NCBI GenBank assembly: GCA_964036665.1
Contig: OZ038530.1
Span: forward strand, 18,374,001 to 18,438,000
Length of the DNA: 64,000 bases
From: Gordius sp. MW1
Taxonomy: Eukaryota > Nematomorpha > Gordioida > Gordea > Gordiidae
Direction of reading: 5' to 3'
The position numbers and the translations under genes were made by a program. How positions within the stretch are numbered: position 1 is the first letter of the stretch; every line of letters starts with the position of its first letter. Positions 856 to 25,188 of this stretch are shown here, in pieces. Under the pieces are notes generated by a model that worked only from the letters and a program-made list of their open reading frames with translations, was not told the origin of the DNA and made no database searches.

Positions 856-2184
856 ATGGAGCAACCACCACCGACTATAAATTTTCCTTTAGAAGAAAAA
901 AATATACTAGAATACTGGGAAAAAATTAAGCCTCTAGAGCTTAGCCTTCAGCAGTCAAAGAATAAACCAAGGTTTAATTGTTATTTATGACTAATTTTGT
1001 TATTATATGAATGTATTTTTATAAATGAAAAGTAAATGTAATGTTTGTTTAATATCTGTAAAAAAATTTTATGCAGTTTACATGTTATACTTTACAATTT
1101 AGGTTTACATTTTATGATGGCCCTCCATTTGCAACAGGCCTACCTCATTATGGCCATATATTGGCTGGAACAATAAAAGATATTATAACAAGATTTGCAC
1201 ATCAAAATGGGTATCATGTAGAAAGACGTTTTGGATGGGATTGCCATGGTTTACCCATTGTAATATAACAGATTCTTAATAATTTATAAATGTACTCTAC
1301 TATAAGCTGTACTTGATGTATTAATTCTTTGATGAGAGTAGTTTACATTAATTAACCCTTATGTGAAAAACTTTTAAATATGTTTGTTATAATTCATAAA
1401 GGAATATGAAATTGATAAATTGTTGGAAATCAAGAACCCAGATCAAGTTTTAGCAATGGGCATTGATAAATACAATGACGAATGTCGTAAAATTGTTATG
1501 AGATACTCAGCAGATTGGAGAAATTGTATAAATAGGCTAGGACGCTGGATAGATTTTGATAATGATTATAAAACACTTTATCCATGGTTTATGGAGTCTG
1601 TATGGTGGGTTTTTAAGCAACTCTTTAACAAAGGCCTCGTGTATCGTGGATTTAAAGTAATCTATTTACTTGTATTATAGTTAATGTATTATGACTTTTA
1701 TTAAATATTATCATGTTTATTATTAGCAAATTTACATGAATTTTGAACTTTTTGTCATGCTTTTATCTGATATGATATCCAACTTTAGACATAATGTTTA
1801 AAATTTAATTATTAAAAATGTTATAATCAAAGAGGATCAGTGTTAGAGGGAGGCAGCCGCCCCTCCCTGCCCCCCCCCCCTTGGCTAAGCCATCTTTAAT
1901 AATTTTAGACAACATACCCTAAACAGACACAATTCAAAAACTGATTTCACTTCGTGTAAAATTCCAATAGGTCATGCCCTTTTCAACTGCGTGCCATACT
2001 CCCTTGTCTAATTTTGAGTCTGGGCTCAATTATAAAGATGTAGTGGACCCTGCTGTAACAGCCGAATTTATTTTGGAAGAAGATCCTGAAGTGAATTTAT
2101 TAGCTTGGACCACTACCCCTTGGACCTATCCCAGCAATATGTTTTTGTGTGTTAACGAAAACTTGACTTACGTGAAAGTTTTGG
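856..2184 (+). CDS. IleRS: Isoleucyl-tRNA synthetase, 5' fragment (exons 1-4), unit 0
   Basis: This is the N-terminal part of a cytosolic isoleucyl-tRNA synthetase, which charges tRNA-Ile with isoleucine. Four exons join in frame: 856-971, 1103-1259, 1402-1656 and 1971-2184, each with GT..AG borders. They encode about 247 residues of a protein usually over 1,100 long. The protein starts [10 protein letters not shown]. Exon 2 has the class I Rossmann motif [20 protein letters not shown], where HYGH is the HIGH signature, and WDCHGLPI. Exon 3 continues EYEIDKLL. Exon 4 has [16 protein letters not shown] and [11 protein letters not shown], the threonine-rich start of the CP1 editing domain. No further exon is seen before Dicer-2 begins on the other strand, so the KMSKS loop and the tRNA-binding region are absent. 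Splice sites and frame are intact, which argues for recent truncation by the duplication rather than slow decay. Exon 4 ends in an open donor (GGTACAT), so any transcript would read into intron and stop at 2211-2213. Confidence 0.95.
1840..1895. mobile_element. MITE remnant in IleRS intron 3
   Basis: A G/C-rich relic resembling the distal part of the CATGGGCGTAGCCAG hAT MITE family: AGGCAGCCGCCCCTCCCTG, a C run, then TTGGCTAAGCC. The other terminal repeat is not recognisable. Repeated at about 28193-28248 and 57574-57629. Confidence 0.6.
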
Positions 2185-2653
2185 GTACATTTATAACGTT
2201 ATTTTCATTATGATTTTTAAAATAAAGGAATATTAACTTTTTGAAAGATTTGAAACTAAACTTATAAAATTTTATGTTTATAACATTTCAATTATTATTT
2301 GTCACTTGCAATATTTTGAGGCTTGATAAGTTGATATATAACAATTATTATTATTGTAATTGCGTTTATATATTTGAACACGTTTATTAATGCATTTCTA
2401 CATAATTTTAATTCTAAATTATTTAAATTTTAGGGTCGTAGCGTTTTAAACTTTAATAATACCTAAATTTTAACTACTTTTGGTGGTAAACATTTTACTA
2501 AAAAGAAATGCGATGTTATCTTTGTTTGTTTGTTTGATAGATAAAACCAATGGGAAAAAATATAAAATTTTCTTCAAATAAATTAGTGCTTTTAAAATTA
2601 CAAATAATATTATTATATACGTCTAAATATAAAACTACTTGATAGGTTTCAAA

Positions 2654-3172
2654 TTAAGTTTCCCATCTATTTTTGTCCCAAAAATCAACTGCCATTGAAC
2701 CAGTGTATTGCCCTATCAACAGATCTGTGTGATCTTTTATATACTGTCCTTGTTGCATAACCAATGGTACTAGAATATCAAAATCATATTTTTTTATAAC
2801 GCAAAAATAGTTGTTGAGTACTATTTTGAAAAAAGAGTTAAAACAGTTTAATCAATAAAATATTTAGGATTAAAGAATAATCTTATATTGAACAAAAATG
2901 CACCTGAATTCACGAGAAAAAATGTACGTTTTCCACCTTCTGCCCAAGGCTTTCGTATTTCTTGAGACTTTTCTTTAATTAACATAATTGCTATATATGT
3001 TTTTCCAGTTCCAGTTTTAAGGTAGGCAATCACATTTTTTTTCTTTGCTTTTGACATCAGTTCAAGCTATTAATTAAGTTAAGGTTAGAATTAACAAAGT
3101 TACCTGATAGGATCTTGGAGTAAATTGTGAGGAATCATTCATTTTTTTATCTGCCTTCACTTGAGTTGACAT
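2654..3172 (-). CDS. Dcr-2: Dicer-2 5' fragment (exons 1-3), unit 1
   Basis: This is the N-terminal helicase part of an insect Dicer, the RNase III enzyme that cuts long dsRNA to siRNA. Exon 1 is 3172-3104 (MSTQVKADKK... ending PRSYQ), exon 2 is 3066-2904 and exon 3 is 2769-2654. All have GT..AG borders in frame (69, 163 and 116 nt with a stop; 115 residues). Exon 2 carries helicase motif I, AYLKTGTGKTYIAIMLIKE (Walker A GTGKT), then KRTFFLVNS. Exon 3 has VPLVMQQGQY, HTDLLIGQY and VDFWDKNRW. An intact Walker A favours Dicer-2 over insect Dicer-1, whose helicase is degenerate (family knowledge). Homology ends at about NRW, three codons before an in-frame TAA with no donor, so the duplication breakpoint probably lies inside this exon. 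The DExH box, PAZ, RNase III and dsRBD domains are missing. A pyrimidine-rich acceptor (TTTCTCTAG) just 5' of the start suggests a non-coding leader exon upstream. Confidence 0.93.
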
Positions 3173-5243
3173 GACGTTCAATTGTTTGCTAGAGAAAAGT
3201 AAACCTTACAATAATAAAAAATCATAATAACACCTAATTATTAGCTCATTATTCTTATTAGAAAGTTTGTAATAGATTAGAGATTTGCTAGATTTGAAAT
3301 AATGTGCTAAAATAATTTAGGTTTAAATGATTTGGGGCACATTTAGGTGTAAAAGATAAAATTAAGAAGCTTAGGTACTTACTTGACACTTTTTAGTAAA
3401 AAGTTGTATTATAAATATACCGCATATTTTAAATGGATAGCCACTAGGTACATTTCCTACTTACAAATTTATTGAGAACCTTCTAGATATATCATATCGC
3501 TAATCGCTACTCGAAAATTGGAGTGCTCTACCATCACAAAACTCCGAATCTGAAATTATTATTCAAATGACTTGAAATTAAGTTCGGTAATGTAAATGGC
3601 ATCTGTAATGTTTTGGCAAAAAAGTAGGCTTTTCCTTTAATTTACATATAAAAATAGACTTTTAGAATATCATATAGAGCAAAGTTTTATTTCTTGTTTT
3701 TATCGCCTTTGCTTCATCTAAATTTTTAAGTAGAAGAATTTTTTAAATAAACTAAGTTAAATTTTTGACTTATTGTTTTTATAATATAATAAATATGACA
3801 TTATTAACCTATTTATTTCTTATTATGATTATATTAATATATTAAAATAAATCTAGTTAATATTTTAAATAATCTTATGGGAAATTGGGACTGTGTACCA
3901 TGTTAAATTTATCCACGCTAAAAACTAATGTAATTTAAAATATATCTGAAGGAATAAATGTGTATAGTTAAATTTTAAAACATTTATAATGATAAAAATT
4001 TAATTGGGTCTTTAGTGAAAGGGGTTGAAATATAATTTTTTAAATAGGAAAAAGCAACAATGATAACGAATCTATAAATCGCGAGTTTATATACCAATAG
4101 ATAACGATAAACATTCAAATTAAAGTTAATTCTTTTCGTGTATTCTTTCTCTTTTCGCCTTGTGCGTATCACAACCAAATCTCTTCCAAGGTAAATGAAT
4201 ATGTTTCACTACAAGCCAATAATCAGGTTAAATCATAGTATGTAAAACAAATACAATTATTAAAAATCATTAAAAAGTAAATCATACTTACAAAGGCGTT
4301 GCAATAGAGAGGAATGCCGCCCACACCGAGTTGTCAAACAAACTGGTCCATAAAAGGGGCGTAGGTTTGTGTACACATTAGCCTAGATAAGGGAGAAGAA
4401 AAATGGAGTTGTCGGAGTTCCCTAAAATAGTCAAAAACGGGACGCGTTGAATTTAATCCAAGACAGAAAAGTGATCGAATAATGGAAATGATATATTAGG
4501 GAACTTATGAATATTGCAAATGACAAAGATTCCAACAAACAATAGGATTGTGTTAAAAATGTTAATAAAAATAAGTTAAAAAGAAAAAATTGGTAATTCC
4601 CGGTCACTCGAGTTCTTCTATCTTTTAAGAAACGACCTACATGGAAAATTTATACATAAAACCATATATACAAAGTAAACTTTAAAACCCTTATGGTTAT
4701 AATGTCTTAATAAAAATACTCAGATTCTTTGCTTTGCCACCATTTTAAATAATTAGGTTATTGCTATAAAATGAGAAAACAGTGATAAAAATAACTTGAG
4801 GAAATAAATTTTAGGATTTGTTTTTAAATTTGTTAATGATGATGAGTGTATAAATTTTGGCGTTTGGCCGGGTCAGATAAAGTATAAGTTAGCAACGGTC
4901 AGCATTGATTTACAGGGAATTATTTAGCCAGTTTCGCATTCATCCGTTATAAATTAACAACCTAAATTGCCAAACCAAATTTAAATAAAGGTAATCAGTC
5001 AGGCACAAAAACACTAATGGAATTTGAGCTTATGCAAGGTCGGAAAAAGTAAAGCCAATCAGCGGTTAGCTAAATAAAAGTCTTTCACAGAAGCATAAGT
5101 CCACAGCCATTAAAAACCCGTAAAAGTTTTCGCGACAATTATTGAAAAATTACAAGTTGGACAGGACAGGACGGATAACCAAAAGACATTGCATAGCAAT
5201 TTAAATAAAAAATAATATTAAATTAATTCACTCAATATTGCTA
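3173..5243. other. Non-coding stretch upstream of Dicer-2
   Basis: AT-rich with no recognised gene. It should hold the Dicer-2 promoter. A weak exon candidate lies on the - strand at 4342-4292, coding LFDNSVWAAFLSIATPL, with a CAG acceptor and a consensus GTAAGTAT donor; I do not recognise it. A perfect half-palindrome TTGCATAGCAATT at about 5189 recurs around 12.5-14.8 kb. Unit 2 carries the LTR element in this stretch, after about 31058. Confidence 0.4.
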
Positions 5244-5370
5244 GAGGGTATAAATGGGGAGGCAAATATGTGCAGCTGCACCCCTCCAAATCCAAAAATT
5301 CCTGATGAAAAAAACATTTTTTGCCCTATTTAAACTGCCCCCTCCAATTTAAATTATCTCCGCCCATGGG
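5244..5370. mobile_element. Short MITE relic, unit 1
   Basis: A GC-rich patch: GGGGAGGC, CAGCTGCACCCCTCC, AAATCCAAAAATTCC, then TGCCCCCTCCAATTTAAA and CCGCCCATGGG. This is the body and right end of the GGGCGTAGCC MITE family, with a decayed left end. The unit 3 copy is at about 60978-61104. In unit 2 this relic is split by the hAT element at 34105-35260. Confidence 0.55.
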
Positions 5371-6149
5371 ATCACGTGTATAAATTATCTTTAACATTAA
5401 TAATGCATGTTGAGCTATTGATGAATTAATGAGCTAGGATGGAAACAAAATTTAACTTTCCTTGTTAATTTAATATAAATAAAATAATTACAAATTATAA
5501 CATTATAAAACACCTTCTTTTATACAAAATCTAATAAATTTTAAAACGGCTTTTAACGGGCCTTAAGTATAACTAGGCGCGACCCGAGCCTGTTACGTTA
5601 TATATCGGCCGGTCAGGCCCGACCTGTTGTTTTATTTTTAAGCATAAGCCCGTCCAAGACCGGTGTAGGGTTATCAGATTCACATGTTATCAGATTCATG
5701 TGCGTTATAGAACGCAATCATTGGCTACAAACGTAAAAATAAACAAGATCACGTGATTTTCGCCACATCGCCATTGGTTATGAACTTTATACAGAACAAT
5801 TGAACGCGTAAAAAACACTCGTTACGAGATTAATAAACAACTGTTACCATTTTCAAGCTAATTAACCTACAAACAACTCTAACTCATGTCACCGCCATTT
5901 TCCGAATTGGAAATTGGTAGGACTATAATAAGTTGTTAAGTAAGTAATATATAACATGTTTTATATAAAGTTTTAGATATTAAAGAGTGATATACTTGTG
6001 TTTACAAAATGTATAACATTTTTCTGGAAATATGTGAGGGTTATAAGAAATGAAGAGGAGAAATAAATAGTAATAAAGAGTTATCACGATGGCCCAACAA
6101 ACTCTATCAAGGAAATCTAAAAAGTCACATGGGGATTAATAAAACTAGG

Positions 6150-6760
6150 AACAAAATATCTGAAAAGTGCAGCATATTTCTAATCATTGTAAATATGCTC
6201 ATTTAGGTATTGGTGTCCCAATATGTGTTCAGACATGGGCGTACGGAGGGGGGGGAAGCCCTAATTAAAAAAAATTTCAATACAAAAACCCTAACAAATT
6301 AAAAAAAATATGTTTTGACCCCGCCCCCTATTTAGCGAGGGGGCAGCCGAACCCCCCCCCCCCCCCCCCCTTTTTTGCTCTTAGGAAAATTTCGAGCAAA
6401 ATTTTTTTAAAAATCTGCCCCCCCCCCCCTAATTCAAAACCTGCGCGCCCATGTGTTCAGATATAAATGATTATTAGCATCTCATAACCATTTTGATGTA
6501 ATGATATTTATTTAAATAAAATTTATATCCATTGTATTATAAACTTAAGCAAAAATTAAGTCATAACTTAGTCTATGGTCATAACTTTAAAATAAACAAG
6601 GAACAAAATATCTGAAAAGTACATCACATTTCTAATCAAAGTAAATATGTGCATTTAGGTATGGGTGTCCCAATATGTGTTCAGATATAAATGATTATAT
6701 AGCACCTCATAACCATTTTGATGTAATAAATGATATTTATTTAAATTAAAAAAAATTATA
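6150..6760. repeat. Local tandem duplication split by a MITE
   Basis: A segment of about 165 bp (GAACAAAATATCTGAAAAG through TGTCCCAATATGTGTTCAGA to AACCATTTTGATGTAATGA) occurs twice, at about 6150-6233 joined to 6462-6530, and at about 6599-6760. The first copy is interrupted by the MITE at 6234-6453. The second serves as its empty site and proves the insertion and its target duplication. Confidence 0.75.
6234..6453. mobile_element. hAT-type MITE (CATGGGCG family), unit 1
   Basis: Ends are CATGGGCGTACGG and CGCGCCCATG, flanked by the 8 bp target duplication TGTTCAGA (6226-6233 and 6454-6461). The nearby second copy of the flanking sequence has a single TGTTCAGA. The 8 bp duplication and CA..TG ends fit the hAT superfamily. 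No coding capacity. Long G and C runs vary in length between units. Confidence 0.85.
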
Positions 6761-6915
6761 GTATACTGTGCTAAACTTAAGCAATAGCTATCAATGGAAA
6801 TTACATATTATAAAACTAGGTCTCATAATATAATTTCAATGATCTTTATCAAATCAAAAGACTTATTATAAATGAGCAAATAAAAAATAGCTATTATCAA
6901 TATATATTTATATAT

Positions 6916-7467
6916 AAGAATAACTCTAATTTATATGTCATCTAGGACACATTTTAAATTAGAGACTAATTTGACTAAATTATCCCTATCTCTTTTAGAA
7001 TGTGACTTGAAAATGAAAACAGACATATAACGTTTTCGCTCTTATTGGAGCTCATCAGCATGCCATAGTTGATTCTCTAGTCACATAGTAATCGAGATAG
7101 CTATATATAAGGCCAAATTAGATTTTCACGTTTACGGTGTTTAAGGATAAAACTCATTAAACCCACCGTAATTGTTGCGTAAATAATATTTGTTTGAAAT
7201 TTTGTTGAAATAAAGATTTATAATACGATTCCGGTTGGGGTTTTTGTCTGTTTTCATTTTCAAGTCACATTCTAAAAGAGATAGGGATAATTTAGTCAAA
7301 TTAGTCTCTAATTTAAAATGTGTCCTAGATGACATATAAATTAGAGTTATTCTTATTTGATTCGCGGTTTCCACCCGTCGTAAATCGGGCCCTCTTTATA
7401 AAAACCCCAACCGGAATCGTATTATAAATCTTTATTTCAACAAAATTTCAAACAAATATTTATATAT
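6916..7467. repeat. Unit 1-specific 552 bp segment with interleaved inverted repeats
   Basis: Absent from units 2 (empty site near 36830-36841) and 3 (near 62640). It is bordered by a 12 bp direct repeat ATATTTATATAT (6904-6915 and 7456-7467). Inside are two perfect inverted repeats in the order A-B-A'-B': A 6916-7026 pairs with A' 7245-7355 (111 bp), and B about 7185-7245 pairs with B' about 7400-7460. A' directly abuts B. No ORF of note. It may be a foldback or Helitron-like insertion, a template-switch product, or ancestral sequence deleted from the other units through the 12 bp repeats. Confidence 0.8.
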
Positions 7468-7654
7468 GTCATTAATTTTGATAACAAATTTAAAAATGGC
7501 TGTCAATTACGACATACCTCAATCAAAGTCAGATTGACACTTGAATCTGATCATACTTGAATATAATAACCTGACACCTGTTGGACGGAATTTAAAATTA
7601 TATCAAATATATCTAGTAGAGTAACAATTACAATTTTGAAGGAATAGATAGGGA

Positions 7655-9286
7655 ATTACGGGTTTCCAGAAATAGTTGTTACGGATAATGGTAAAGCTTT
7701 TATTAGCAACGAATTTAAACAATTTTGATTAAAATATTAAATAAACCATAATTAAACTCCACCGTTCCTTTCAAGCTCTAATGGTCAGGTAGAAAGGTAT
7801 GTAGGTATTGTTAAAAAATGGTTAAACATAGCTAAAGTAACGAAGGACGGAACGTGGTTATCTAAACTTTATCACAATATGTCACCACGGTATAACCGTG
7901 CTCCGGTTAGCTATGAATTTTTAAATCGTAAATTAATGTACCCACCCGATTTTTTAAAGTTCACTGAGCACCAAACTTCACCCAGTATTAGTGTGCCAAA
8001 GTTTGAGTTAAACCAAAGAGTTTGGTATCGGAACTATTTGAATGGGTGTTAGGTGTAATTATTGAACAATTAGGGACAAAAGTCATAAAGTTAAGGACTT
8101 AACGGAAAATAAATTTGAAATTAGGATGCTATATAATTATATTCAACGTTTATTCCTAGTTAGATGAGGATAAATGCAGCATGGTGCGACGTGGAGTTAA
8201 AAGTGACATCCACGGCATCTAGGAACAAAAGGGTTTCGCTATACATTTTAATAAAAGTGGAAACGGACTGGAGGTCAAGGCTATTAAACTTGACTCTCTG
8301 GGTCCGCCGGGCCAGGTCGGGAGGGCATACACACAACACCCAAGATCTCCAAGACGACCAAGACAGGAGGGGGCTGCGGTCAGAGGAAACAGAGATACGA
8401 GCGGAGCAACGACGAAATGTGTCTGGAAGTCAACCGTTACTCCGGCCTCCAATCGAAGCGAAAGAAGTGTTGGGGATGTAAAGCCAAACATTTGCCCCCG
8501 ATGTGTTTCAAAGTGAAATCCGGTTTAGGAAAGGTTCCTCAACCCAATAATGTCGCAGAGCTGGAGTCCAGGGTGACTATGGACACCCTGACTTTTGACA
8601 ACCCCGGACCTTCAATTTCTTAATAAAAGGGAAAGGTGTGGTATACGTATATACCACGTTACCACCATGTGTTATTATACCACGTTTTAATGTCCTCGGT
8701 ATACTTTAATCTTACCTAGATTTGTTTTATAAATATTAATGTAAAAGGGTTAAAGAACGGTTCTGCAATCCTTATAATTAAAAAAAGGAATTGGTCAAAG
8801 GAAGGCATTTTTACCGCGGGTTAACCTAGACGCGGAAGTGGCTAAGTTTCTTTGACGCTCTCTTTTTTTAATTACTTTTTATTTTTAACTCACAACATCT
8901 GGTACTCATTTTCGCAGCCCCGTCTGAAGATTTCCAGTACGTTGCTCGTTCAATCAAGCCCACCACTCTGGAAAGATTCAACAACTTTAAAAGCCAGATC
9001 TCACATCAATATTTCAGCCCTTGTAAATTATCCCCCAATCCTTGTAAATTTTTCACAAATTTTTGTACTTATTCAAATCTTTGTAAATATTCCCCAATCA
9101 CTACGTTTTCCCCCAATTATTGTAATTTTACAAAATATAATTTTACCTTCGCAAATGATTCTAATTATAAAATTTCCTTTATTGTTGTAATATTTAGTCG
9201 TATTGGCGTTAATAAAGTAAATTCGTATTTTTCTTGGTAAAGTTTTTTACTTACATCGCTACCCACCCTTTCCGTCGGCTATTACA
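7655..9286 (+). mobile_element. Gypsy-like LTR retrotransposon remnant, unit 1
   Basis: The 3' end of a decayed LTR retrotransposon. Frame 3 from about 7655 reads GITGFPEIV-type integrase sequence: YGFPEIVVTDNGKAFISNEF (catalytic D in TDNG), then stops, TPPF, SSNGQVERYVGIVKKWL (catalytic E in QVERY) and RVWYRNYLNG. A frameshift then leads to EQLGTK and KVKDL, typical of an integrase C-terminus. Several in-frame stops show it is dead. Between integrase and LTR (8060-8620) short ORFs include KRKKCWGCKAKHLPPMCF, vaguely like a zinc knuckle but with wrong spacing. A polypurine tract (AAAAGGGAAAGG, 8625-8636) precedes the LTR. Gag, protease, RT and the 5' LTR are missing. Confidence 0.85.
8637..9286 (+). 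repeat. 3' LTR of the Gypsy-like remnant, unit 1
   Basis: 650 bp beginning TGTGGTATACG right after the polypurine tract and ending GGCTATTACA, so it has TG..CA ends. AATAAA at 9211-9216 is a likely polyadenylation signal. A partial palindrome GTGGTATACGTATATACCAC sits at its start. The ORF inside (8852-9190) is AT-rich and unlikely to be coding. Confidence 0.8.
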
Positions 9287-10653
9287 GAAATATGTTTGTT
9301 GATTTTATATTGACGTTGCTAATATGTTCTCTTTATCTAAAATAAATTAATGATATTTTAACATATGTTATCATTTATAATAGTGTTCATTACATCCCAA
9401 ACATTGGATATTTTCTCAGCAACCTCAGCGGTTCGAATAAAATTTAGATTTAAATATATTTATTTGCCTATATAACTTGCTTTGTTGAGTCCTTCCATAT
9501 TTATGGATAAATTTTGGTGGCAGTACACTGTTGAGATCCAAAAGAAAATACTAAAATATTGAGTCACAAAAGACATATAAACCTGTATATTTGCCAACTG
9601 AAATACATGGGTTTCGTTTCACCTAAAAACAGAAATAAAAATGAGAATTATATTAATTACTTGATGATGTTAAGTCTATATTTAGCACATTAAGATCTTG
9701 TTCTTTTGTTTCAGTGGTAGACTTAAGGGTGCCCCTCCCCCCTTTGGGTAAGTGAGAGAGTAAAAGGGAGGGTGGTAAATCACTCCTCCACTCTGGGGGA
9801 GGGAGAGGGTGGGGGAAGGGGGCAAAAAAGGGGGGCGGACAGTCTATGTGCAAAAATGAAGAAAAACTCTGTATATTGGATTTTTCTGGTGAACTAATTA
9901 ATATAAGGTCAAAATTATTAAAGATTCAAATTTCGTTCGAACCTGAGCTTAATATTTTATAGATCTTTTAACATATCTATTCTTACACTATTGCCTTTCA
10001 TCACATTACCTGACTGCTCTAAAAAATGTAAAATTATTATACTGAATCTAATGTATTTAATAAAATTTACCTAATTTTGTTATCATTTTGAAATCTGCTG
10101 TTTTTTAACAAACTTCAACACATATTATAATGAATAAATAGGCATATCATATCATTGGATACTTCTCGTTTTAAAAGTCAAATATCTTATTAGATTAGAG
10201 CTGTAAGTTAGTTACAACAAATAAAAATAAGCAATCTTAAATTTCGTTTTCGGTGAATTTGTTTATGTAAAATTAAAATAAAATGGAATGATTTATATTG
10301 GATCCTTGGCCTTAGAACAAATGAAATACAGCGCCTTTACATTTTTATAATTGCAAGCACTTCGAAATATTATTATTTCATCCAAAGAATGCAAATCTTT
10401 AAATTATTAAATTCAGATCAGTAAATTTTATTTATCATTTTAGCTAAATATTTCATTTTCATTTTGAAGATTTTGGAACGCATAAAAAATACATTAAATT
10501 TATAAAAATTTAAATTAAATCCAGCTCTTTAAAAATTCACGTTATTAGACAACATATCAAAAAATTTCAGATATTTACTAAATTTTTTAAAAACAACATT
10601 TATTTCTCCACCCCCCCCCCTTCCATAAAACAAATTCTAGTTTCGTTGGATAC
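9287..10653. other. Non-coding stretch with purine/pyrimidine-skewed island
   Basis: No gene recognised. A G- and C-run island at about 9728-9842 (CCCCTCCCCCC, GGGGGAGGGAGAGGG, GGGGGGCGGAC) interrupts AT-rich sequence and may be a MITE relic. The rest shows nothing I can name. Unit 2 equivalent is 38662-40029. Confidence 0.35.
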
Positions 10654-10822
10654 CATGGGCGTAGCCAGGGGGTGGCAGGGAGGGGCGGCTGCCCCCTCTA
10701 AATCCAAATCTTCTTCAAAATATAAAATAATTACGTCAAAAACTACTAAATATTCTCGTTTTGCCCCTCCCTAAATCATTATTGCCCCCCCCCCACTCTA
10801 AATCCAATGCTAACTATTATGG
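10654..10822. mobile_element. hAT-type MITE (CATGGGCG family), decayed right end, unit 1
   Basis: The left end CATGGGCGTAGCCAGG and body GCAGGGAGGGGCGGCTGCCCC with CTCTAAATCC are typical of the family. The right end reads CCAATGCTAACTATTATGG, so its terminal repeat has decayed and no target duplication is seen. Unit 2 copy is 40030-40197. Confidence 0.8.
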
Positions 10823-12400
10823 AATTGTTTCCACCTCATTACACCGCGGACATATAATTGTAGGAAAAAGAGTTAGTCGCACCAGTTAAAACACATTGTA
10901 GATGGCAGCATATTTTTAAATACACATGCATTAATTCTATCAAATAAAATGATATTTTATTAGAGAGTAAAAATTTATAGATTATATAGATAATTTGCTA
11001 TTAAAATAAATTATTTGAACTAGTTTTAATATATATATATATATAAACTTAATAAATTTTTCTTGTTAGAGACTATGATTTAGTCGTAAAATGAAGATAT
11101 AAAAGATGAAGCATAAGAGTTGAAACCTAGAGATGACCTAACCTCGGACCTGAAACCTTGAGGTCGTTATAAACCTCAAACCTAACCTCAAGGTTAGGTG
11201 TTAGGTTGATTGACAACCTCAGGTTGACCTGAGGTTCACCTGACCTAAGGTTTTCCCCACCATTACTCTCACGGATTATATGCCTCGTATAAATATGTAT
11301 ACATAGCGATTATTTAAGGAGATTATTAAGTGATTATACCAACGAATTAAATAAAGGTTTTATACTTGGTGTTGTTGGGTTGCTTAAGAGTTTTATTATT
11401 TCTTTAAAAGATTTGTATTTCACTATAATTTGACCGGGTATGAAATCAAAATTTGATGAGTTAGCTTATTATACAATTTTTCCTCTTGGTTGTGATTAAT
11501 ATCTTTTTTATAATTTTTAGAGGAAGCGTTTCTAGTGTAATTTAGATGTGTGAATTTACTTGAAAACTTTAACTATAATATCATTCAAGGCGCTAACACA
11601 TTTTAAGCATGTTCAAAATATTTTTGCCCTCTTCAACTCCATTTTACATTAAAAACTTGCAAAAGGTTATGGTTCAATATTAAGGTATAGATTTGAGCTG
11701 ATTTCTTATGTCGATTTTTTATTCGGATTCGATTAGCGTCTTATTTAAACCCAGTTTAATTCAAAATTTTAAATGAAATTGTAGTCCTGCACGAATCATA
11801 GGATTAGAAGTCAAATAATATAAATTAGGAATAATTTCAAATTTAGAATTAAATGAACTTAGGAAAGGTTTGAATAAAAAGTGTAGTTTAAATTTAAGGT
11901 TACAAAAATTTAAATTGCACAATTATATTTTTGAAGTAACCAAATTTAATTAAATTATGTGGTTGTAGTATATTACGTTTATCAATATACTATATATTTA
12001 TATAAATTCAGTAATTTTTATGTTAAGAGTTTTATTTGGGTTAAGATTTTATTATAATAAGTTGGTCGCCTTCCCATTGATTCTTTAAAATCAATTTTAT
12101 CGGGTGCGCTGTAAAATCGACTAAACCAAACTGCTTTCCAAGCAATACTTGTTTGGCGAAATTATATTAAAAATGTTCTGACATGTATAGGTTTTTGCTA
12201 GGAGCCATCCTTTTTACTTAAACAAAGACTTGGTATTCTTATCTTATATCCAAGTACAATTTTAAATCGTTCGCGGGTACTTGGCCAATTTTGGAAGATC
12301 CCTCGATGATGCTATATCAGAGTAGTTTATCATTTTATTTGACGCATTTTGTCTTTTTTGTTTGTTTAAAAACTTAAATGTTTATTAAATGGTATACAAA
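10823..12400. other. Non-coding stretch with ACCTCAGGT-type palindromes
   Basis: No gene seen. At 11125-11262 a cluster of AACCTCA/TGAGGTT words forms nested short palindromes (CCTAACCTCAAGGTTAGG, ACCTCAGGTTGACCTGAGGT). Unit 2 has 7 extra bases in this cluster (near 40617), consistent with slippage. A short TA run lies near 11030. Unit 2 equivalent is 40198-41782. Confidence 0.45.
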
Positions 12401-12659
12401 AACTCGGGCCTTCGGCCCTCGTGGGAAGGGGGAGAAGGGAAGGGGAGTAGGGGAAGGGAAGAGGGGAAGGGGGAACTCTTCTATACTCCGTATAAACGTA
12501 GCATATTTGCTATGCAATTTATGGGCGAGAAAGGTGGGAAGGGGCGAGAATGCCTATAGGGGGTATTAGATGCAAAATAATTAGTTAATTAGTTATAGGC
12601 CCTTGTAGGGGAGGACATAGGGTAATTATCAATGTTAACCAATTCAAAAACGAAAAAAA

Positions 12660-14250
12660 ATTTCGATTTATTTGGCCAATGGTCATTTTTTTATTGGTCA
12701 GTAGCCAGCGGACGGTCAAAAATTCATATTATCATTGGTATTAACATGAACAAATATTAATTTAATTTAAAAAAATTTTAAAAAAAAATTGTCCCCTCCC
12801 TGACTTGAACCCCACACCTCCAGTTCACAAGCCGGCGCTATAACCACTATACCATGCTGGCTTTAAAATAGTTGAAGTTATTATGTTATTTATATAAATA
12901 ATGAAATAATAAAGTTGTGTTTTATGTTTAGAAAATCAATATATTTCGTCGGTCAGTAGCCAGCGGACGGTCAAAAAGTCATATTATCAATGGTATTAAC
13001 AAAAACAAAATATTAATTTAATGTAAAAAAAAATTAAAAAAAAAAGTTTTTTTTTAGTTTTAAAAAAGGGCTAAATTCTTAAACTACCAGCCCGATTCGC
13101 TCGAAACTTTACCCGTAGGTGCCCAGGGCGGCCGGGGGTAAAATAACCTTTTCAGATTCCTAAAATACCTTTTCATTTTAAAATCGGACATTTCCCTGAC
13201 ACACGTGCGGTGTAATATCTATGACACGTACAAAAATTTTACTAATTATATAAACTTACGCGCGCCATCTAATAAAGTACAATTCGTGTTTGAGTTTAAT
13301 AGTAGATTCAATTTAATTAGAAATAACGGGCTATGATTATACCTTTGAAGGAGGTTTCGAATTTTGTGTTAGTTTCTATCGATATATTTTATCGTAAATT
13401 AGAATCTAATACCTATATTATTTTTTTAAATATTACTTTTTAGGTTTTCTATGAAATCACAATCTAATTAAATGAAATATATTAACCCAATAAAAAAATA
13501 TATATGCATTTATAAGGTTAAAAATATATATTACATAGTTGGCTGTCTGTTAGACCATCTATAATAAATTTTTAGGTTATATATAAAATTTGGCCAATGG
13601 TCATTTTTTTTCATTGGTAAGCAGCCAGGACACGGTAAAAGTGGATATAAATTCATAAGTCAAAAAAAACGAAAAAAAAAAATTTCGAATCACATTTTGG
13701 CCAATGGTCATTTTTTTCCATTGGTCAGCAGCCAGGACACGGTAAAAGTGGATATAAACTTATAATAAAAAAACTAAAAAAAAATTTCGAATCACATTTT
13801 GGCCAATGGTCATTTTTTTCCATTGGTCAGCAGCCAGGACACGGTAAAAGTGGATATAAATTCATAATAGTCAAAAAAAAACTAAAAAAAAATTTTCGAA
13901 TTACATTTTGGCCAATGGTCATTTTTTTCCATTGGTCAGCAGCCAGGACACGGTAAAAAGGGATATAAATTCATAATAGTCAAAAAAAACAAAAACAAAA
14001 AATTCGAATCACATTTTGGCCAATGGTGATTTTTTTCCATTGGTCAGCAGCCAACGGACGGTCAAAAAGGCATAATAGCAATGGTAGTAATAGGAACAAT
14101 CATAATAGTCAAAAAAAAAACGAAAAAATAAACTCGGATTCACATTTTGGCCAATGGTCATTTTTTTCATTGGTCAGCAGCCAGCGGACGGCCAAAAAGT
14201 CTTATTATCAATGATAGTAACAAGAACAATCATAAGAGTCAAAAAAAACT
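12660..14250. repeat. Hairpin satellite, 105-130 bp period, unit 1
   Basis: The phrase TTTGGCCAATGGTCATTTTTTT followed by CCATTGGTCAGCAGCC (or CAGTAGCC) and GGACACGGTAAAAG or GGACGGTCAAAAA recurs near 12670, 12950 (half), 13592, 13698, 13799, 13907, 14014 and 14145. CCAATGG and CCATTGG pair across a T-rich loop, so each unit can form a small hairpin. Runs of A and AAACGAAAAAA separate the units. Two subtypes alternate (GGACACGG and GCGGACGG). Confidence 0.85.
12791..12861 (-). pseudogene. tRNA-like sequence (tRNA pseudogene or SINE head), unit 1
   Basis: Read on the - strand it begins GCCAGCATGGTATAGTGG, contains an A-box-like TGGTATAGTGGTTA, an anticodon-region CCGGCTTGTGAACTGG and a B-box-like GGGTTCAAGTC. 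The layout resembles a tRNA-Thr(UGU), or His if the loop is read one base on. The acceptor and T stems do not pair, so it is not a functional tRNA. It sits between two satellite subunits. A Pol III-derived SINE head is the main alternative. Confidence 0.5.
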
Positions 14251-14354
14251 CCGGGATTCTAACCCCAAAACTAGTTAAATTGCATAGCAATTACCAAAAT
14301 TTAAATATAGATATACTTATGCATTAATTTAACGTAGCAATTAAAACCCGACCC

Positions 14355-14545
14355 CGCCCGAAAGCGAGGGAGATAGAGATGAGGGGTGGGGCACCTCTTG
14401 ATAGAGATGAGGGGTGGGGCACCTCTTTCTCATGCATTAATTTAAAAAATCGATAACCTAATATACCCAATGCAAATAGATAGGGAGGGTAACGGACGGA
14501 CAACGGACAGACAACGGACAACGGACAGACAACGGACAACCAAAA
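14355..14545. repeat. Short tandem repeats (33 bp x2 and GACAACGGACA)
   Basis: GATAGAGATGAGGGGTGGGG with CACCTCTT occurs twice in tandem at about 14365-14428. At about 14490-14540 the words ACAACGGAC and AGACAACGGACA repeat five to six times. Unit 2 equivalent is 43737-43927. Confidence 0.75.
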
Positions 14546-14812
14546 ACGAGCCCATAAATTGCATAGCAATTAAAAAAATTACATACAGGACTAAAAAAAT
14601 ATGAAAACGCGTTATAACTAAACGGATGGCATTGATCCGTGTATGGAAATCGTGTTGGAAACGATTTCCATTGTGATCTTTTGCTTGATTTCATGTATTT
14701 ATAATATATTACTGCCAACGGATTTTTAACAAATAAACTTTAAAAAAAACAAAACAATATTGACTAATTTTTAGGTCGGGTGAAAATTTATAATATCAAT
14801 TGCTATGCAATT

Positions 14813-15360
14813 TTTTGATTTGAGATCGATTATGTTAGACTCTAGCTTATATATAGAAATGCAAAAATTTAAATGATAAAAGACTGATTTTTGAAAAAAC
14901 TCATTTATTAAATTCTTATATTTTTACACAAATTTGTTTTAATTTTTCCAAATTTGAATCAGCTTAACAATGGCCAAAATCTTCGAAAATATTTGCAGTA
15001 TTTTTCAATTCCGAATATAAAATCTATCAATTTAATTTAAAAGCCCATTACCAAATATTTTAGCAATAACTCCTCATTACAATTTATCCAATCAAAAATC
15101 ATTATCTATCATCTTCAATGTCTTCAATGGGCATAAATCAATATTCAATACTTAACGAGGTCGTTTATTAGCAATATTTATTGGAAAAAATAATATTAAC
15201 AAAACATAATTTATGAAGCTTAAGAATACGTGTTCTTTCAGTGTTAATTTTATGCAGGGTCAAGGCCAAATATGAATCATTCAGCAAATGAATAAAAATG
15301 ATTATAATAGGTTTAGTTTAAGTAATATTATGAAAGTAGTGAATATCAATAAATACATTT
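14813..15360. other. Non-coding stretch
   Basis: AT-rich with nothing recognised beyond simple A/T runs. Unit 2 equivalent is 44195-44742. Confidence 0.3.
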
Positions 15361-15368
15361 AAGGGACA

Positions 15369-15690
15369 CATAGGCGTAGCCAGGTTTTAAATTGGGGGGG
15401 GGGCAGATTAAAAAAAAATTCCTGAGAGCAAAAAAAAAAAAGGTCTCGACTAATCAAAATCCAAAAATTTTCCTGAGAGCATACGCAACTCCCCTAATTA
15501 GGCAGTGGGGGCAGCCAGACCCCCTGCCCCCCTGGCAAATTAGGAGGAGCAGGGGGTCAGGCTGCCCCCCTCTGGCTAATTAGGGGGGGGGCAAATCATA
15601 TTTTTTTTTAATTTCTAAGGGTTTTTGTATTGAAATTTTTTTTTAATTAGGGGGGGGGGGGGCCCGCCCCCCCCCCTGCCTACGCCCATG
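15369..15690. mobile_element. hAT-type MITE, 322 bp, with 8 bp target duplication, unit 1
   Basis: Terminal repeats CATAGGCGTAGCCAGG and CCTGCCTACGCCCATG, flanked exactly by AAGGGACA (15361-15368 and 15691-15698). The interior holds several G and C runs and two direct copies of TTCCTGAGAGCA. This copy gives the clearest definition of the family: CATGGGCGTAGCCAG ends plus an 8 bp duplication, as in hAT transposons. Confidence 0.9.
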
Positions 15691-15698
15691 AAGGGACA

Positions 15699-16932
15699 TC
15701 ACATTAAGTCTATCAAACATTTTTAAACAAAATTTATTGTAGAAGTCACTCCTTATTTTGCAATTCATTATTGCCAAACTCTAGGCCCGTCCCAAATCTA
15801 TTTAATATTTGATGACCATTACACAATAAGCAATATTTGATAACTTTTTTTTTGGCTTTTCCCTAGATTAATTTTTTTAGCATTTGTTTTGTTATATAAA
15901 AGTTTAAGCCCCCACATCTAATCAGGTCAGCGAACTTTTTTCAACCGCATTTTCTTATAAATAATAATTGAGCAAAAAATGAAATTTTAATTCAAAGGTA
16001 ATTTTCAATTTGTTAACAACCTTAATAAGTTAACATATATATGCCTTTCATTATATTTCTTTTTTTTTGGGGGGGGGGGGGGGGAAAGAAATCAATTTTG
16101 TATGTAGGACGTAGACCCAACTAATAATAATGATCGAACGATGATCAGGTAATCCTTGCGCCCTACAGTAAAAATCAATAAAGGTATACCTAGCATTCCA
16201 GTACGGAGCACTTCAAAAGCCCACAAAGTTTTCGAGAATTATTCAGCAAATATTAACATTTTTGGTTTATGGGACTCTTAAACGAAACATATATCTATTT
16301 TATTAACATACGATTTGGCAAAGAACGCGGCAATAAGGCTTTAATATATATTTGGCGCATTTCAAAATAAATATAAAACAATTATGTACAAACAGGTAAC
16401 CATTATAGATACTTTAAGCGAAAACGGTAACCGTTCACATTATAAGTAAATCATATTTTAGTTTGGGTATTTTAAGGCATGTCATTATTATTATAACAAT
16501 TTCTAAAAAATATATTAGTTACAGATCGTAATCGCGTTGCATTGCACCTTTCGAGTTATCGACTAAAACTAAGCAATATATTTGACAAATAAACACGTCA
16601 GTTGGCTACAACCCCGCGACATAAAATCGATTGAATAATTAATAAGGCAACAAATTTTAATGTTTATGGCAGAGCGGCACGACGACAATTACAACAGTTT
16701 AAGTCGATTCTAAATTAGGCACTAATTACCAAAATTTAAAACGAAATTCGCCCATATGCGTTGTAATGGTAGATTTCCTTCTTTAATTAAAGTTTCAAAA
16801 TTATAATGTGAGTCGATTGTCAAGGCAAATAGGTGAGTTATACTGAGTGTGGCCAACTTTAATATAGTGCAAAACAAACGTTTTTCAGTCACATAAAATC
16901 GTATGACAATGGAATGCATTTAGAAAACAAAA
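15699..16932. other. Non-coding stretch
   Basis: No gene is recognised. A T run followed by a G run lies at about 16063-16084. The - strand ORF at 16722-16919 (KRLFCTILKLATLSITHLF) has no family I know. Unit 2 equivalent is 45076-46314. Confidence 0.3.
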
Positions 16933-17060
16933 CTATTTGGACTCAAAGGGTTGCAAAAATTTCACCTGGTTCTCGTGAGTAAACCACTTGTAGGCATCAG
17001 AGAGAAAAGCCACCAGCATTTTCGGTTGAGGATCCCACTTTGCTATTGCTACCACCACTC
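16933..17060 (-). pseudogene. Unidentified terminal exon (WDPQPK), unit 1
   Basis: On the - strand a TTTTACAG acceptor at 17061-17068 opens a frame that reads VVVAIAKWDPQPKMLVAFLS then DAYKWFTHENQVKFLQPFESK and stops at 16935-16933. Codon content is richer in G and C than the surroundings and the sequence looks protein-like, but I do not recognise the family. It lies 0.5 kb downstream of the last TMCO4 exon on the same strand. It could be a further exon of that gene or the last exon of a neighbour. Confidence 0.5.
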
Positions 17061-17267
17061 CTGTAAAAGTCCGAGTGATAACCTAATAATTCGTATTCTC
17101 AATTAATACTTACTATATGAATTGTTAGTAGATTTAAAATCAATTTTTTTCTATATGTTATCAAACCAAGATGATTGATTATCAGTTCAAACCTCAGCCT
17201 ATAGTTTCCCAATAAATTTTGATATGTACCACTTTGTATGCGTCTCAATAAGGTGAATAATACCCAA

Positions 17268-17515
17268 TGTTCTAGGATTGGATTTAGAGGGGGATAGTCG
17301 CCCCTTCCTGCCACCCCCTGGCTGCGTCCAAGACTGTAATATTATTATTTTAATGTCACTCATTAATATATTAGCCTAGGGGAGGGGGGGGGGGAAAGGG
17401 GCGGCTGCCCCGATTTATAAAGTAAGGAGGGGAAAACTGATATCTTTTCTTAATTTTATTCATATTTAAATTAAACGTTAAAAATTTTCATAAACTAAGG
17501 CAGGGACGTGAGGAA
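17268..17515. mobile_element. Two decayed MITE relics
   Basis: GGATTTAGAGGGGGATAGTCGCCCC to CCCCCTGGCTGCGTCC (about 17275-17330), and a G run with AAAGGGGCGGCTGCCCCG (about 17378-17416), match the interior of the CATGGGCGTAGCCAG family. Ends and target duplications are lost. Unit 2 equivalents lie at about 46650-46900. Confidence 0.6.
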
Positions 17516-17962
17516 AAATGATAATTTTACTTGGATTTAGCCACATTTTATCAAGTTTTAAGGATTTAATCCAATAAAATAGGTTGTATCCTCACATGTA
17601 ATATATATCAAAACTAAAAAAGCCATAATGAAAACCTAACGTTTTGAGAAGGTCCCCCATCCTACCCACGTAGTCGTTATGCCCAGTTACTATGCTAGAC
17701 GCGTCCACGTTCAATATTCTGGGGTGATTTGTTTTCCCAGGCCCGGTCATTAGCTCAATGGGTTGTAGGCCGGCCACGCTTATTTGGGCCGAACCTGTGC
17801 GGTATAAAAATTTGAGAATCCAATCGGTGCTGCAATAGCAATTGGTGAATTGTCCGGCCACCACATCGAGCCAGGCCGTATAAGTTTCGTCGTGGCTGGT
17901 AAGGGCGCCCCTAGGAATGAGAAATGATGTTAAACAAGTCTAGATTTTTCCACACTTATAGT

Positions 17963-18128
17963 CATGGGCGTAGCCAATGGGAGGGGGGGGGGGGCAGGGA
18001 GGGGCGGCTGCCCCCTCTAAATCCAAAAATTTGTTGAAATTTATTAAAATCATGGCTAAAATTTTAAAATTTATTTTTCGTCCCTCTCTAAATCATTCTC
18101 CTCTAATTCCAATGCGGCTAAGCCCATG
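17963..18128. mobile_element. hAT-type MITE (CATGGGCG family) in TMCO4 intron, unit 1
   Basis: Ends are CATGGGCGTAGCCAATGG and GCGGCTAAGCCCATG, with the interior GGCGGCTGCCCCCTCTAAATCC. I see no target duplication, so this copy may be old or formed by recombination between relatives. Unit 2 copy is 47346-47509, with a shorter G run. Confidence 0.85.
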
Positions 18129-18156
18129 GCCCACAATTAGCCTATCTGAGCGGGTC

Positions 18157-18356
18157 GTGTTGTAAAAACAGCTGGGTTTTGTCTAGTCGACTTTTGGTTT
18201 CAGTCGACTAAACACGAGCAGACCATAGCTTTTTTGGTCTGTTTTTCTTAGTCGACCTCTAGGATTAGTCAAAATTTGAAAAACATACCAGAAGCTACCG
18301 TTAGTCTTAGTAAAACCAAAGGTGGACCAAACAAAACCCAGCCGTTTTTACAACAC
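18157..18356. mobile_element. Second MITE family (GTGTTGTAAAAAC ends), unit 1
   Basis: A 200 bp element with 26 bp terminal inverted repeats, GTGTTGTAAAAACAGCTGGG at the left and the complement of GTGTTGTAAAAACGGCTGGG at the right. TAGTCGAC words and AGTCGACT palindromes lie inside. No clear target duplication. It lies 28 bp from the preceding MITE in the same TMCO4 intron. Unit 2 copy is 47538-47737. Confidence 0.85.
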
Positions 18357-18784
18357 TTCGAGTATGGTAAAAAACGCCATTGTAGACACAAACCAAAATA
18401 AAAAAACGGTCAAAATCTTATGGCAATCACAGTCAGTCGTATATGGAATTTTTTGGGATATTGACCAACAAACTATAATATTAAATCAAAAATATCTTTA
18501 TTCCTAGGCAAAACTAGGAGGTCGATCCTATTACCTATAAGTATGACGTCCTCTATAATGCCTCTGGGGTCTTGATTACCATCCTCAGTTAGCTCAGATT
18601 CTGGAATTCCTGGAGCATCGGTTTCGCTGCGAGATGGCGTAGAAGAACGACTACCCACAGATTTAGAGGTCGGCCGATTCCTGTCTAAATTGCCAACCCT
18701 ACGTAAGCCACATAAGTCGTAAACTATTTAAGACTTATTGCTCGACAAAAACAGGAAAAAACTTGATGTCCAAAACATTATGCG

Positions 18785-18988
18785 CATGGGCGTAGCCAGG
18801 GGGTGGCAAGGAGGGTCGGCCTTCCCTCTAAATTGAAAAAGTCTAAGGGGGAGGCAGGGAGGGGCGGTTGCCCCCCTCTAAATCCAAAAAATTTATTAAA
18901 CTTATGGCTAAATTTCAAAAAAAATTTATATTGCCCCTCCCTAAATCATTATTGCCCCCCTCTAATTCCAATGCTGGCTATGCCCATG
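18785..18988. mobile_element. hAT-type MITE (CATGGGCG family), unit 1
   Basis: Ends CATGGGCGTAGCCAGG and TGGCTATGCCCATG. The interior has GGGAGGCAGGGAGGGGCGG and TGCCCCTCCCTAAATCATT. No target duplication found. Unit 2 copy is 48166-48369. Confidence 0.88.
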
Positions 18989-19374
18989 GGTCGGATCTTT
19001 AATTTGCAGAACTGCACATTGCTAACAAAAATTTAAAAGAAGGTTATAAATTAATTTTTTTATGCTTAGTTTTTAAGAGCTAATAATAATTAAAATCATA
19101 TTTTAGGTATACATATTTTTTATCAAAAATTTTGTTCTTTAAATTTAATAACCATTAAATACGAACAATTTCAATATAAACAAAGTATCTCTAACATTTA
19201 ATTTCTATTTTAGCATTAATTTAATCATTGTTTTTAATCAGTATATACAATGTTTTGTTTAAGGTTAAATAAAAAGTCTTGAGATGTATAACAAATTTTA
19301 TTTGTTAACACTCAAAAGAAATTTCAATCATCCTTCCTCGAATTACACAAAGTATCTGACAATGCTAATCCAGG

Positions 19375-19528
19375 CATGGGCGTAGCCAGCATTGGAATTA
19401 TAGGGGGGGGAAAAATTATTAAAGGAGGGTAAAAAAATAAATATTTTTCATAATTCTAATAAATTTTAACAAATTTGGATTAAGAGGGGGGCAGCCGCCC
19501 CTCCCTGCGCCCCTTGGCCACGCTAACG
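19375..19528. mobile_element. hAT-type MITE with AATCCAGG target duplication, unit 1
   Basis: A 154 bp element with ends CATGGGCGTAGCCAGC and TTGGCCACGCTAACG (right end partly decayed). It is flanked by AATCCAGG at 19367-19374 and 19529-19536. Unit 2 copy is 48756-48911. Confidence 0.88.
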
Positions 19529-19793
19529 AATCCAGGCAACTAATTTGCATGTATAGATCAGCTGTAGATATTTCAGTTTTACTACTAATTATATTAACAT
19601 ATTAGAAAAAAAAATTATGGCAAACTTTGTGATCTAATACGTAAATTTTTTTATTGTTGCGTGATTTACTCTTTCTAAGCATGAATTGAATCATCATTCA
19701 TTTACTTTTTTTCTCTTAATGTTTTCGTAATGTTTTATGTTATATTTCGATGGCTTTATTTTAAGTTGATTTAACGTTTTAATCTATAAAGTT

Positions 19794-21189
19794 ATGTTAA
19801 CTATCCACCCACCGGTAGCTACGAAAGATATGGGCTCTTCTATATTAGGTTATGTGTGTAAAGCGTGCATTTCTCGCATCCTAAAAGATAAATTTTTAAT
19901 GCCATCTAGTGAAAATAAAAACAAGGACTTCACCAATGCCAATAGAGATGGTGATAAGGGACCGCCTGTAAATGAGGAAAACAAAGATTTTACCCCAGAA
20001 TCTGATTATGAAAACGATTCTCCAGTGCCTAATTTCACTAAGCTGGTCAACTCGAGAAAGCGGGAGGCCAAAGTGTTTGATATATGGAGCTATTCTTAAG
20101 CTAGTCCCAACAGCGGACGGTATGTGTTTGAAAACACATTCTAGTTCGGGTAGTGTCGGGCCGAGAGGAAGAGAGGATTCTGTCGTTGAAATGAAACGCG
20201 ATTTCGCTCTTTCCATGATCAGTTGTCCTATGTGTGATCGGAAATCTCTAAGAGCCGTTCAAGCCACTAGAGGAAGCCCGCCCGGGTTAGATCATCGCAT
20301 TTTGTGGGCGGACACTTTGGTGATCAGGGAGAAAGCGGGGAGCAAGATGAAACACAAGTTAGAACGTTGTGAATGCTCTACATATCTGGGCAAGGATGGA
20401 TCTTTTACTAAATCCATGATAATGGCACAAGAAGATCGCCTCTTCTCTCCACCCATACCTATTAAATTGATGAATGCTCCCCAACAACAACAACCACTAC
20501 AGTATACACAGCTCACTCCCATTCCAAAGTTTTCACAAAATTATCCATTCGTTGAAACAAAATGTCCTAAGTCACCATTGGAATCGGGTTTTCTTAGTAA
20601 GAGAGTTTGTCCGAGATGTCATTTACCCTTAAACTCCCCCTACGAATCTAGAGGAACCGTACCAACGCCCATGCAGCCAGCTCCCTAAACTGTTCCGGGT
20701 ATACTAGCGACGCAGGTCAATAAAATTAGGAGTATTATGAAATCAATTTCTCCCAACCCGTTAGGATCAACCTCCTGCAATTCACAATGGGCCCGACCGC
20801 AAATGATGGGTGATATGGCTTTTAGAACCTCAACTAATACTCTGCCAATTTTTTATGGACCAATTCCTAAATCACCACGATTTTTCTCAATCAATTACGC
20901 ATCAGTTCAAAAATCAATTTGCCCATATAATCAGGTGGTAAGAGGTCCTAGATGTTGCGGAACTTGTAAAGTCCCTTATACACCCGTCCCTTCGCCACAA
21001 CCCCCACCTGCACCAACATTCTCCAGCATTAATAGGAACATAAGTTTTGCACTAATCAGTCCAGTAAGATGTGTTGGCTCTTAATCCGTCAGTAGGTTCC
21101 CTGGATGTGGTCAGCCTAACGCCTCTCAAACCTCAACTATCCTTTCTCAATCTCAATATAATTATCCTGGTAATTCATTCCCAACTTAA
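19794..21189 (+). pseudogene. Cys-rich protein of unknown function, broken ORF, unit 1
   Basis: One long protein-like frame without introns. It starts MLTIHPPVATKDMGSS at 19794 and reads YVCKACISRILKDKF. An acidic, Asn/Lys-rich stretch follows, then REAKVFDIWSYS. One extra base near 20097 shifts frame, and it continues KLVPTADGMCLKTHSSSGS, VEMKRDFALSMISCPMCDRK, LDHRILWADTLVIREKAG, KHKLERCECSTYLGKDGSF, IKLMNAPQQQQPLQYTQLTP and KRVCPRCHLPL. In-frame stops at 20686-20688 and 21082-21084 break the rest (GPRCCGTCKVPYTPVP, GCGQPNASQTST) before a final TAA at 21187-21189. Paired cysteines (CKAC, CPMC, CEC, CPRC, CGTC) suggest metal-binding treble-clef or ribbon folds. I do not recognise the family. 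Lack of introns over 1.4 kb allows a retrocopy, but no poly(A) tail is seen. All lesions are shared with unit 2. Confidence 0.65.
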
Positions 21190-21266
21190 GCCAAAAAACT
21201 TTAGCAGTATAAATGGGATCTATAGTTCTTATAGTCAACCTTTGAGGCCTTGTAGCAATCCCACTA

Positions 21267-22936: not shown

Positions 22937-22941
22937 CTATG

Positions 22942-25097: not shown

Positions 25098-25188
25098 CTA
25101 TGGTGACATAGTAGTCTGTTTCGATATCGTGCTTCCAGATCAATTAAACCAAAACGATATAAAGAAGTTAAATTCGGCCTTACCCTAA

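Follow-up and report, generated by a model that had tools for sequence, protein, structure and literature searches.

The analysed window, a stretch of 64,000 nucleotides (C4:18374001-18438000, within a genome assembly of 211.8 Mb in 12 contigs), lies inside an array of seven head-to-tail units of approximately 25.8 kb each, which span C4:18273362-18458102 and are all placed on the same strand. The units were compared on a 230-kb region around and including the window, the sequence of which contains no N. From left to right they measure 25,797, 25,801, 25,796, 25,803, 26,353, 29,381 and 25,810 bp, and where two units match over more than 20 kb, their identity amounts to 99.79-99.92%. Being direct, near-identical and contiguous, the units form a tandem segmental duplication. 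The first 3000 positions of the window occur in six copies, all in the same orientation on C4, of which five measure 3000 bp and one 2998 bp; a rightmost partial copy contains window positions 1-2564 only and a leftmost partial copy 2559-3000 only. The features at the border between the units, termed "seam" in the following, are (window positions):

856..971, plus strand: exon 1 of isoleucyl-tRNA synthetase (IleRS), from the ATG, with consensus splice sites
1103..1259, plus strand: IleRS exon 2, with consensus splice sites and a PF00133 match
1402..1656, plus strand: IleRS exon 3, with consensus splice sites and a PF00133 match
1971..2184, plus strand: IleRS exon 4, with consensus splice sites, donor gtacat
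2541..2564, plus strand: remainder of IleRS exon 5, namely its first 24 nt out of 85, preceded by the acceptor ttgatag; the exon was identified by aligning exons 4-6 with cytoplasmic IleRS
2562..2564: duplication seam, ATA common to both parents, IleRS exon 5 to its left and Dicer intron 3 to its right
2565..2581, plus strand: foreign sequence by which the predicted chimeric last exon is extended, encoding KIFFK up to a stop at 2579-2581, with AATAAA as a possible poly(A) signal starting at 2577 (translation and motif scan only)
2639..2769, minus strand: Dicer exon 3, with its donor at 2638-2637 and, in truncated copies, a TAA at 2656-2654
2904..3066, minus strand: Dicer exon 2, contains TGTGKT (coordinates from the start of the open reading frame and the exon length)
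3104..3172, minus strand: Dicer exon 1, from the ATG
2559..28911: array unit 5 of seven, 26,353 bp, including a 540-bp insert private to this unit
28915..28917: second seam copy in the window (copy at C4:18400354, seam sequence at 18402914)
58296..58298: third seam copy in the window (copy at C4:18429735, seam sequence at 18432295)

The 230-kb region contains six seams, every one of which joins 5' IleRS sequence to 5' Dicer sequence. Five of them are identical over a 30-mer and the remaining one carries a single base change. This new junction is present between units only, and the parent sequence continues once beyond each outer edge. The right-edge match (18458102) ends at window position 2564 and the left-edge match (18273362) starts at 2559, the BLAST overlap between the two edges at 2559-2564 carrying one mismatch at 2561. 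As the seam is equal to the left flank from 2562 on and to the right flank up to 2564, the ATA is shared by both parents. When the 2 kb surrounding one original breakpoint were compared with those surrounding the other, no long homology was revealed (best E 0.041; 17 bp at 94%, 14 bp exact). We also considered a founding event by recombination between dispersed repeats and rejected it, because the breakpoint regions of 2 kb each share no long homologous repeat and the seam has just 3 bp in common.

The exons 1-4 on the plus strand, when joined, match the entry "Isoleucine--tRNA ligase, cytoplasmic" 9w01_B, a chain which we take to be the human cytoplasmic IleRS, with an E-value of 2.1e-127. 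The score is 427 bits for cytoplasmic IleRS versus 49.5 bits for the best LeuRS and 43 bits for ValRS, and by this comparison the gene is a cytoplasmic isoleucyl-tRNA synthetase. Exon 5 is found in full at the right edge of the array (18458079-18458163), where its 85 nt lie between the acceptor ...tgtttgatag and the donor GTAACG. Exon 6 begins at 18458256, and the joined exons 4-5-6 align to 9w01_B with one residue as the sole gap. The seam cuts the gene 24 nt into exon 5. A first-pass annotation of the window had let IleRS stop after exon 4, which has to be corrected, since the 24 nt of exon 5 and their acceptor remain at 2541-2564. The PF00133 exons in front of the seam were found seven times each, one per unit, and those behind it (18464284, 18465237 and 18466829) once each, right of the array; a frame with KMSKR is located at 18466751-18466921. 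No SNP distinguishes the units in IleRS exons 1-4. Upstream of the gene, window positions 59-614 are occupied by a dispersed repeat, for which at least about 40 partial matches of 68-83% identity were found at other places of the genome.

In frame after exon 4 the remnant of exon 5 reads DKTNGKKY, followed by KIFFK and a stop. By this prediction, the truncated IleRS uses a chimeric last exon in splicing, which would yield a fragment of 260 amino acids composed of 255 native residues and KIFFK. Two observations count against this prediction: intron 4 contains a second AATAAA, at 2221, and the hexamer is generally frequent here, with four plus-strand occurrences in 1.2 kb. The 260-residue fragment would have the HIGH-type motif and not the KMSKS loop, and without the latter no synthetase activity would be expected.

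On the minus strand, Dicer exon 3 ends in CAA with the donor GTAGTT, and 74 bp of intron 3 follow up to the seam. The codon at 2656-2654 is TAA in six out of six truncated copies and GAA in the copy at the edge (the variant column has C at the edge and A in all six others). The translation of exon 3 is WETEFETYQ for the edge copy and WET-stop-FETYQ for the copy of the window. Over the initial 1301 bp of the unit, five truncated copies are identical to one another, and the edge copy differs from the truncated ones at 2561, which belongs to the left-flank sequence, and at 2656 only. Edge and truncated copies agree over 2562-3859 with the exception of 2656. Counted from the first ATG, the truncated Dicer piece would encode at most 115 residues. 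The exons had earlier been described as otherwise intact, which does not hold for this one codon in exon 3 of Dicer.

Left of the array the edge copy of Dicer continues on the minus strand with a DExH exon (18271312-18271623) and helicase-C frames recognized by eye, and further left with matches to Dicer_dimer (18258425), PAZ (18250172) and RNase III (18242356 and 18234909). The RNase III match at 18242356 spans two stops, which probably mark an intron. Judged by this order of domains on one strand (helicase, dimerisation, PAZ, two RNase III), the edge gene appears to be a full-length animal Dicer. The first-pass annotation had expected an intact Dicer at the left array edge and IleRS exon 5 at the right edge. 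Judged by domains and exons, both predictions held: the Dicer domains continue leftward on the minus strand, and on the right exons 5 and 6 and then the PF00133 exons were found. By domain order, both parent genes are cut at each seam, and each runs through once, at an edge. As the units are arranged head to tail, the leftmost unit joins the remaining Dicer and the rightmost the remaining IleRS, and this order keeps one continuous copy of each gene at any copy number.

To which class this Dicer belongs was addressed by comparison with Dicers of solved structure, the chains of which we presume to represent vertebrate-type Dicer, Dcr-1 and Dicer-2. The RNase III exons score 205 bits with the vertebrate-type "Endoribonuclease Dicer", 199 with Dcr-1 and 109 with Dicer-2, where the Dicer-2 match spans query positions 3-99 only and the others 3-156. 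For the dimer domain 53, 44 and 26 bits were obtained in the same order, and for the helicase part 157, 34 and 117 bits. The helicase scores favor Dicer-2 over Dcr-1; fly Dcr-1 is described as having no helicase domain in one source (PMC2395250). The top match of both helicase and dimer domain among the Dicers with solved structure is AncD1D2, by its name a reconstructed ancestor. The name Dicer-2 given to the gene in the first pass is not supported by the scores of the RNase III and dimer domains, which are lowest for Dicer-2, and we dropped it. Since the fly Dicer-2 evolves fast, it may serve poorly as a reference, and the class itself is not thereby excluded.

A second, diverged Dicer was observed left of the array at C4:18173219-18182224 on the minus strand, in the same orientation as the edge Dicer. 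It has a Dicer_dimer match of 43.9 bits, and its helicase exons share 55 and 64% protein identity with the edge Dicer in two strong matches and 33% in a weak third one. A profile search returned no RNase III match at this locus; the RNase III matches on C7 look like Drosha by eye, which is our assumption. With helicase parts of 55/64% protein identity, the occurrence of two related Dicers in one animal resembles dicer-2a and dicer-2b of the Colorado potato beetle, for which 60% nucleotide identity is given in PMC5792627. The present pair differs from that case in the animal and, by score, in the class of Dicer, and the duplication that led to two Dicers is separate from the array.

As for the origin of the genome, a query of five TTAGGG units gave 24,188 matches, and those among the matches listed are all placed at the start of C1; a query of six TTAGG units gave zero matches in the genome. 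The telomere repeat of insects is TTAGG, with exceptions. The telomere-type TTAGGG repeats argue against an insect genome, and with TTAGGG present and TTAGG arrays absent an insect origin was rejected.

We regard it as very probable that the array goes back to a single tandem duplication with breakpoints in IleRS and Dicer, followed by multiplication of the unit, where the reading frames at the edges were judged by their domains. A break in exon 5 of IleRS (plus strand) would have been joined to a break in intron 3 of Dicer (minus strand), which is located approximately 25.8 kb left of the IleRS break, with 3 bp common to both at the seam. The seam would then have been copied, presumably by recombination between identical units, up to the seven units and six seams that are assembled. 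Since the promoters of both broken genes lie inside the unit, two partial genes face each other, and at each seam two promoter-proximal gene ends are opposed. The tail-to-tail arrangement of IleRS and Dicer had been recognized in the first pass and is found with exons 1-4 facing exons 1-3 at six seams; the tandem duplication proposed to explain it, with its left end in Dicer and its right end in IleRS, fits the array, the seams and both edges. The array as a whole is an unusually clear case of an ordinary class of event, namely a tandem duplication with gene-spanning breakpoints. Its likeliest effect would be none or a mild cost.

A possible but rather unlikely addition, which is compatible with this origin, is that selection for the dosage of the unit content keeps the amplification, and that the truncated genes are bystanders. 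To judge the content, a Pfam scan was performed on 20 frames picked by eye. Above the cut-off, DUF726 was found in one frame and DnaJ_C in three. An uninterrupted frame of 238 amino acids is identical in seven of seven units and has paralogues on C3, C4, C6 and C7, of which all but the C6 ones are located close to DnaJ_C matches. It therefore seems that a member of a DnaJ-related family, whether intact or not, is part of the unit. The identical frame, the DnaJ_C pieces and the number of seven copies are in favor of dosage. This has to be weighed against the fact that DUF726 is partial in each unit, covering profile positions 261-342 only (nearly the whole profile is covered at the loci at 18.76 and 20.70 Mb of C4), and that some DnaJ_C matches in the units contain stops. 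A complete known gene as obvious cargo was rejected, as the recognized content of the 20 frames looks fragmentary. With only this number of eye-picked frames scanned, a gene inside the unit may have been missed.

Several repeats were observed inside the unit. The DnaJ-related region at window positions 19770-22844 includes, besides the 238-residue frame, an internal direct repeat of 92% (21267-21923 and 21966-22616). Approximately 60 copies of a 20-bp minisatellite of the CACCCCAACA type occupy positions 23440-24584 and 52823-53965, and the former stretch is flanked by an inverted pair of approximately 465 bp (22989-23451 and 24586-25050, 91%). Tandem repeats of approximately 109 bp are found at 13589-14248; as similar frames occur both to the right of the array and in the vicinity of the edge Dicer, this is probably a dispersed repeat.

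To estimate the age of the array we counted the differences between the units. Of 33 variable columns 17 were kept as SNPs and 16 were dropped, the latter being located at the seam (2561, 28908), beside G/C runs (15661-15663, 16069, 19397-19402) and in the minisatellite (23511-23551). The SNP column 13036 inside an A-rich run was kept, and this choice of columns is our own. By the 17 SNPs, two units differ on average at 5.2 sites per 25.8 kb (0.2 per kb; range 1-11, n = 21 pairs), and the units 3, 4 and 5 differ from each other by just 1-2 retained SNPs. The mutation rate of insects is approximately 3e-9 per site per generation, a value that is perhaps wrong here. The array looks young on this basis, with a putative age of tens of thousands of generations that is subject to homogenisation, consensus error and the insect-derived rate. 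Three insertions are private to single units (window positions):

6916..7455: 540-bp insert private to unit 5, with a 12-bp AT-rich flanking duplication
31059..33469: repeat element of 2411 bp, present in unit 6 only and flanked by a 5-bp duplication
34106..35260: insert of 1155 bp with CGAGA-rich ends, likewise present in unit 6 only and flanked by a 9-bp duplication

For the 2411-bp element at least 92 matches were found across the genome (40 of 486 candidates scored), the longest of which are 84-96% identical.

The low divergence also raises the question of whether one or a few real units were written seven times by the assembly, be it from haplotypes or from unresolved repeats. The identity of the matches above 20 kb and the single retained SNP between some units would be expected from such an artefact, and most indels between units sit in homopolymers or tandem repeats such as the minisatellite and could be consensus errors. 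On the other hand, of the three insertions with their flanking duplications one occurs in unit 5 alone and two in unit 6 alone, the SNP patterns describe seven different units and not two haplotype classes, and each edge is single and consistent with the other. We consider an artefact, in part or in whole, to be improbable. The private inserts, SNPs and edges argue against a wholly false array and less so against a wrong count; the count of seven and the order of the units come from one assembly, of which a purely artificial array is an unlikely reading.

Another conceivable role of the seam is that of a functional regulatory locus, in which convergent truncated transcripts yield double-stranded RNA or short proteins acting on Dicer or IleRS. 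The promoter-proximal ends of both genes do converge at six seams, and with an AATAAA at 2577 on the plus strand and at 2388 on the minus strand the predicted ends overlap by approximately 200 bp. However, the overlap expected from these motifs (approximately 2370-2600) contains 24 nt of IleRS exon 5 and no Dicer exon. Being almost without exon of the intact mRNAs, it could hardly give rise to siRNAs that silence either gene, barring far read-through. AATAAA is moreover common in the AT-rich DNA here, with the four plus-strand copies per 1.2 kb mentioned above, and the array is young, so that we give the regulatory reading very little credence. A young self-targeting locus, where the promoters of truncated Dicer and IleRS converge at the six seams and read-through leads to double-stranded RNA over Dicer exons 1-3, seems slightly less probable still. 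If it were true, full-length Dicer would dice this RNA into siRNAs against its own mRNA, and a higher copy number of the array would lower the level of Dicer. The exact version of the first pass, with a breakpoint at 2657-2664 and IleRS interrupted in the intron that follows exon 4, can practically be dismissed: the Dicer reading frame does stop near 2657, but at the nonsense codon 2656-2654, exon 3 continues to 2639, edge and truncated copies are the same over 2562-3859 save 2656, IleRS exon 5 begins before the seam, and the seam at 2562-2564 is approximately 95 bp off.

The single tandem duplication with subsequent multiplication of the unit has counterparts in other systems. In Drosophila yakuba and D. 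simulans, as far as described in PMC4503668 and PMC5460883, tandem duplications joined 5' gene fragments to new sequence, and some of the products are transcribed. The present array is like these cases in that a breakpoint inside a gene leaves a 5' partial copy which keeps its promoter and gains neighboring ("recruited non-coding") sequence. It is unlike them in that both breakpoints are located in genes with promoters inside the unit, by which two partial genes are opposed, and in that seven units are assembled. A further likeness exists to the tandem gene amplification by unequal sister-chromatid exchange that is mediated by short repeats and starts from short similarity, as outlined in PMC8831618, whereas the seam reported here shares 3 bp only and its expansion by recombination is presumed. 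In a literature search among PubMed Central papers, none of the titles and abstract openings listed dealt with an array of IleRS and Dicer.

We report a clean young example of an array that multiplies without the loss of either gene cut by the breakpoints, as continuous copies are kept at the edges. A random seam can supply a truncated gene with a ready-made last exon, which the truncated IleRS may use, probably without any function. Provided that transcription takes place at the seams, six copies of a Dicer-antisense arrangement would be present on the assembled chromosome.
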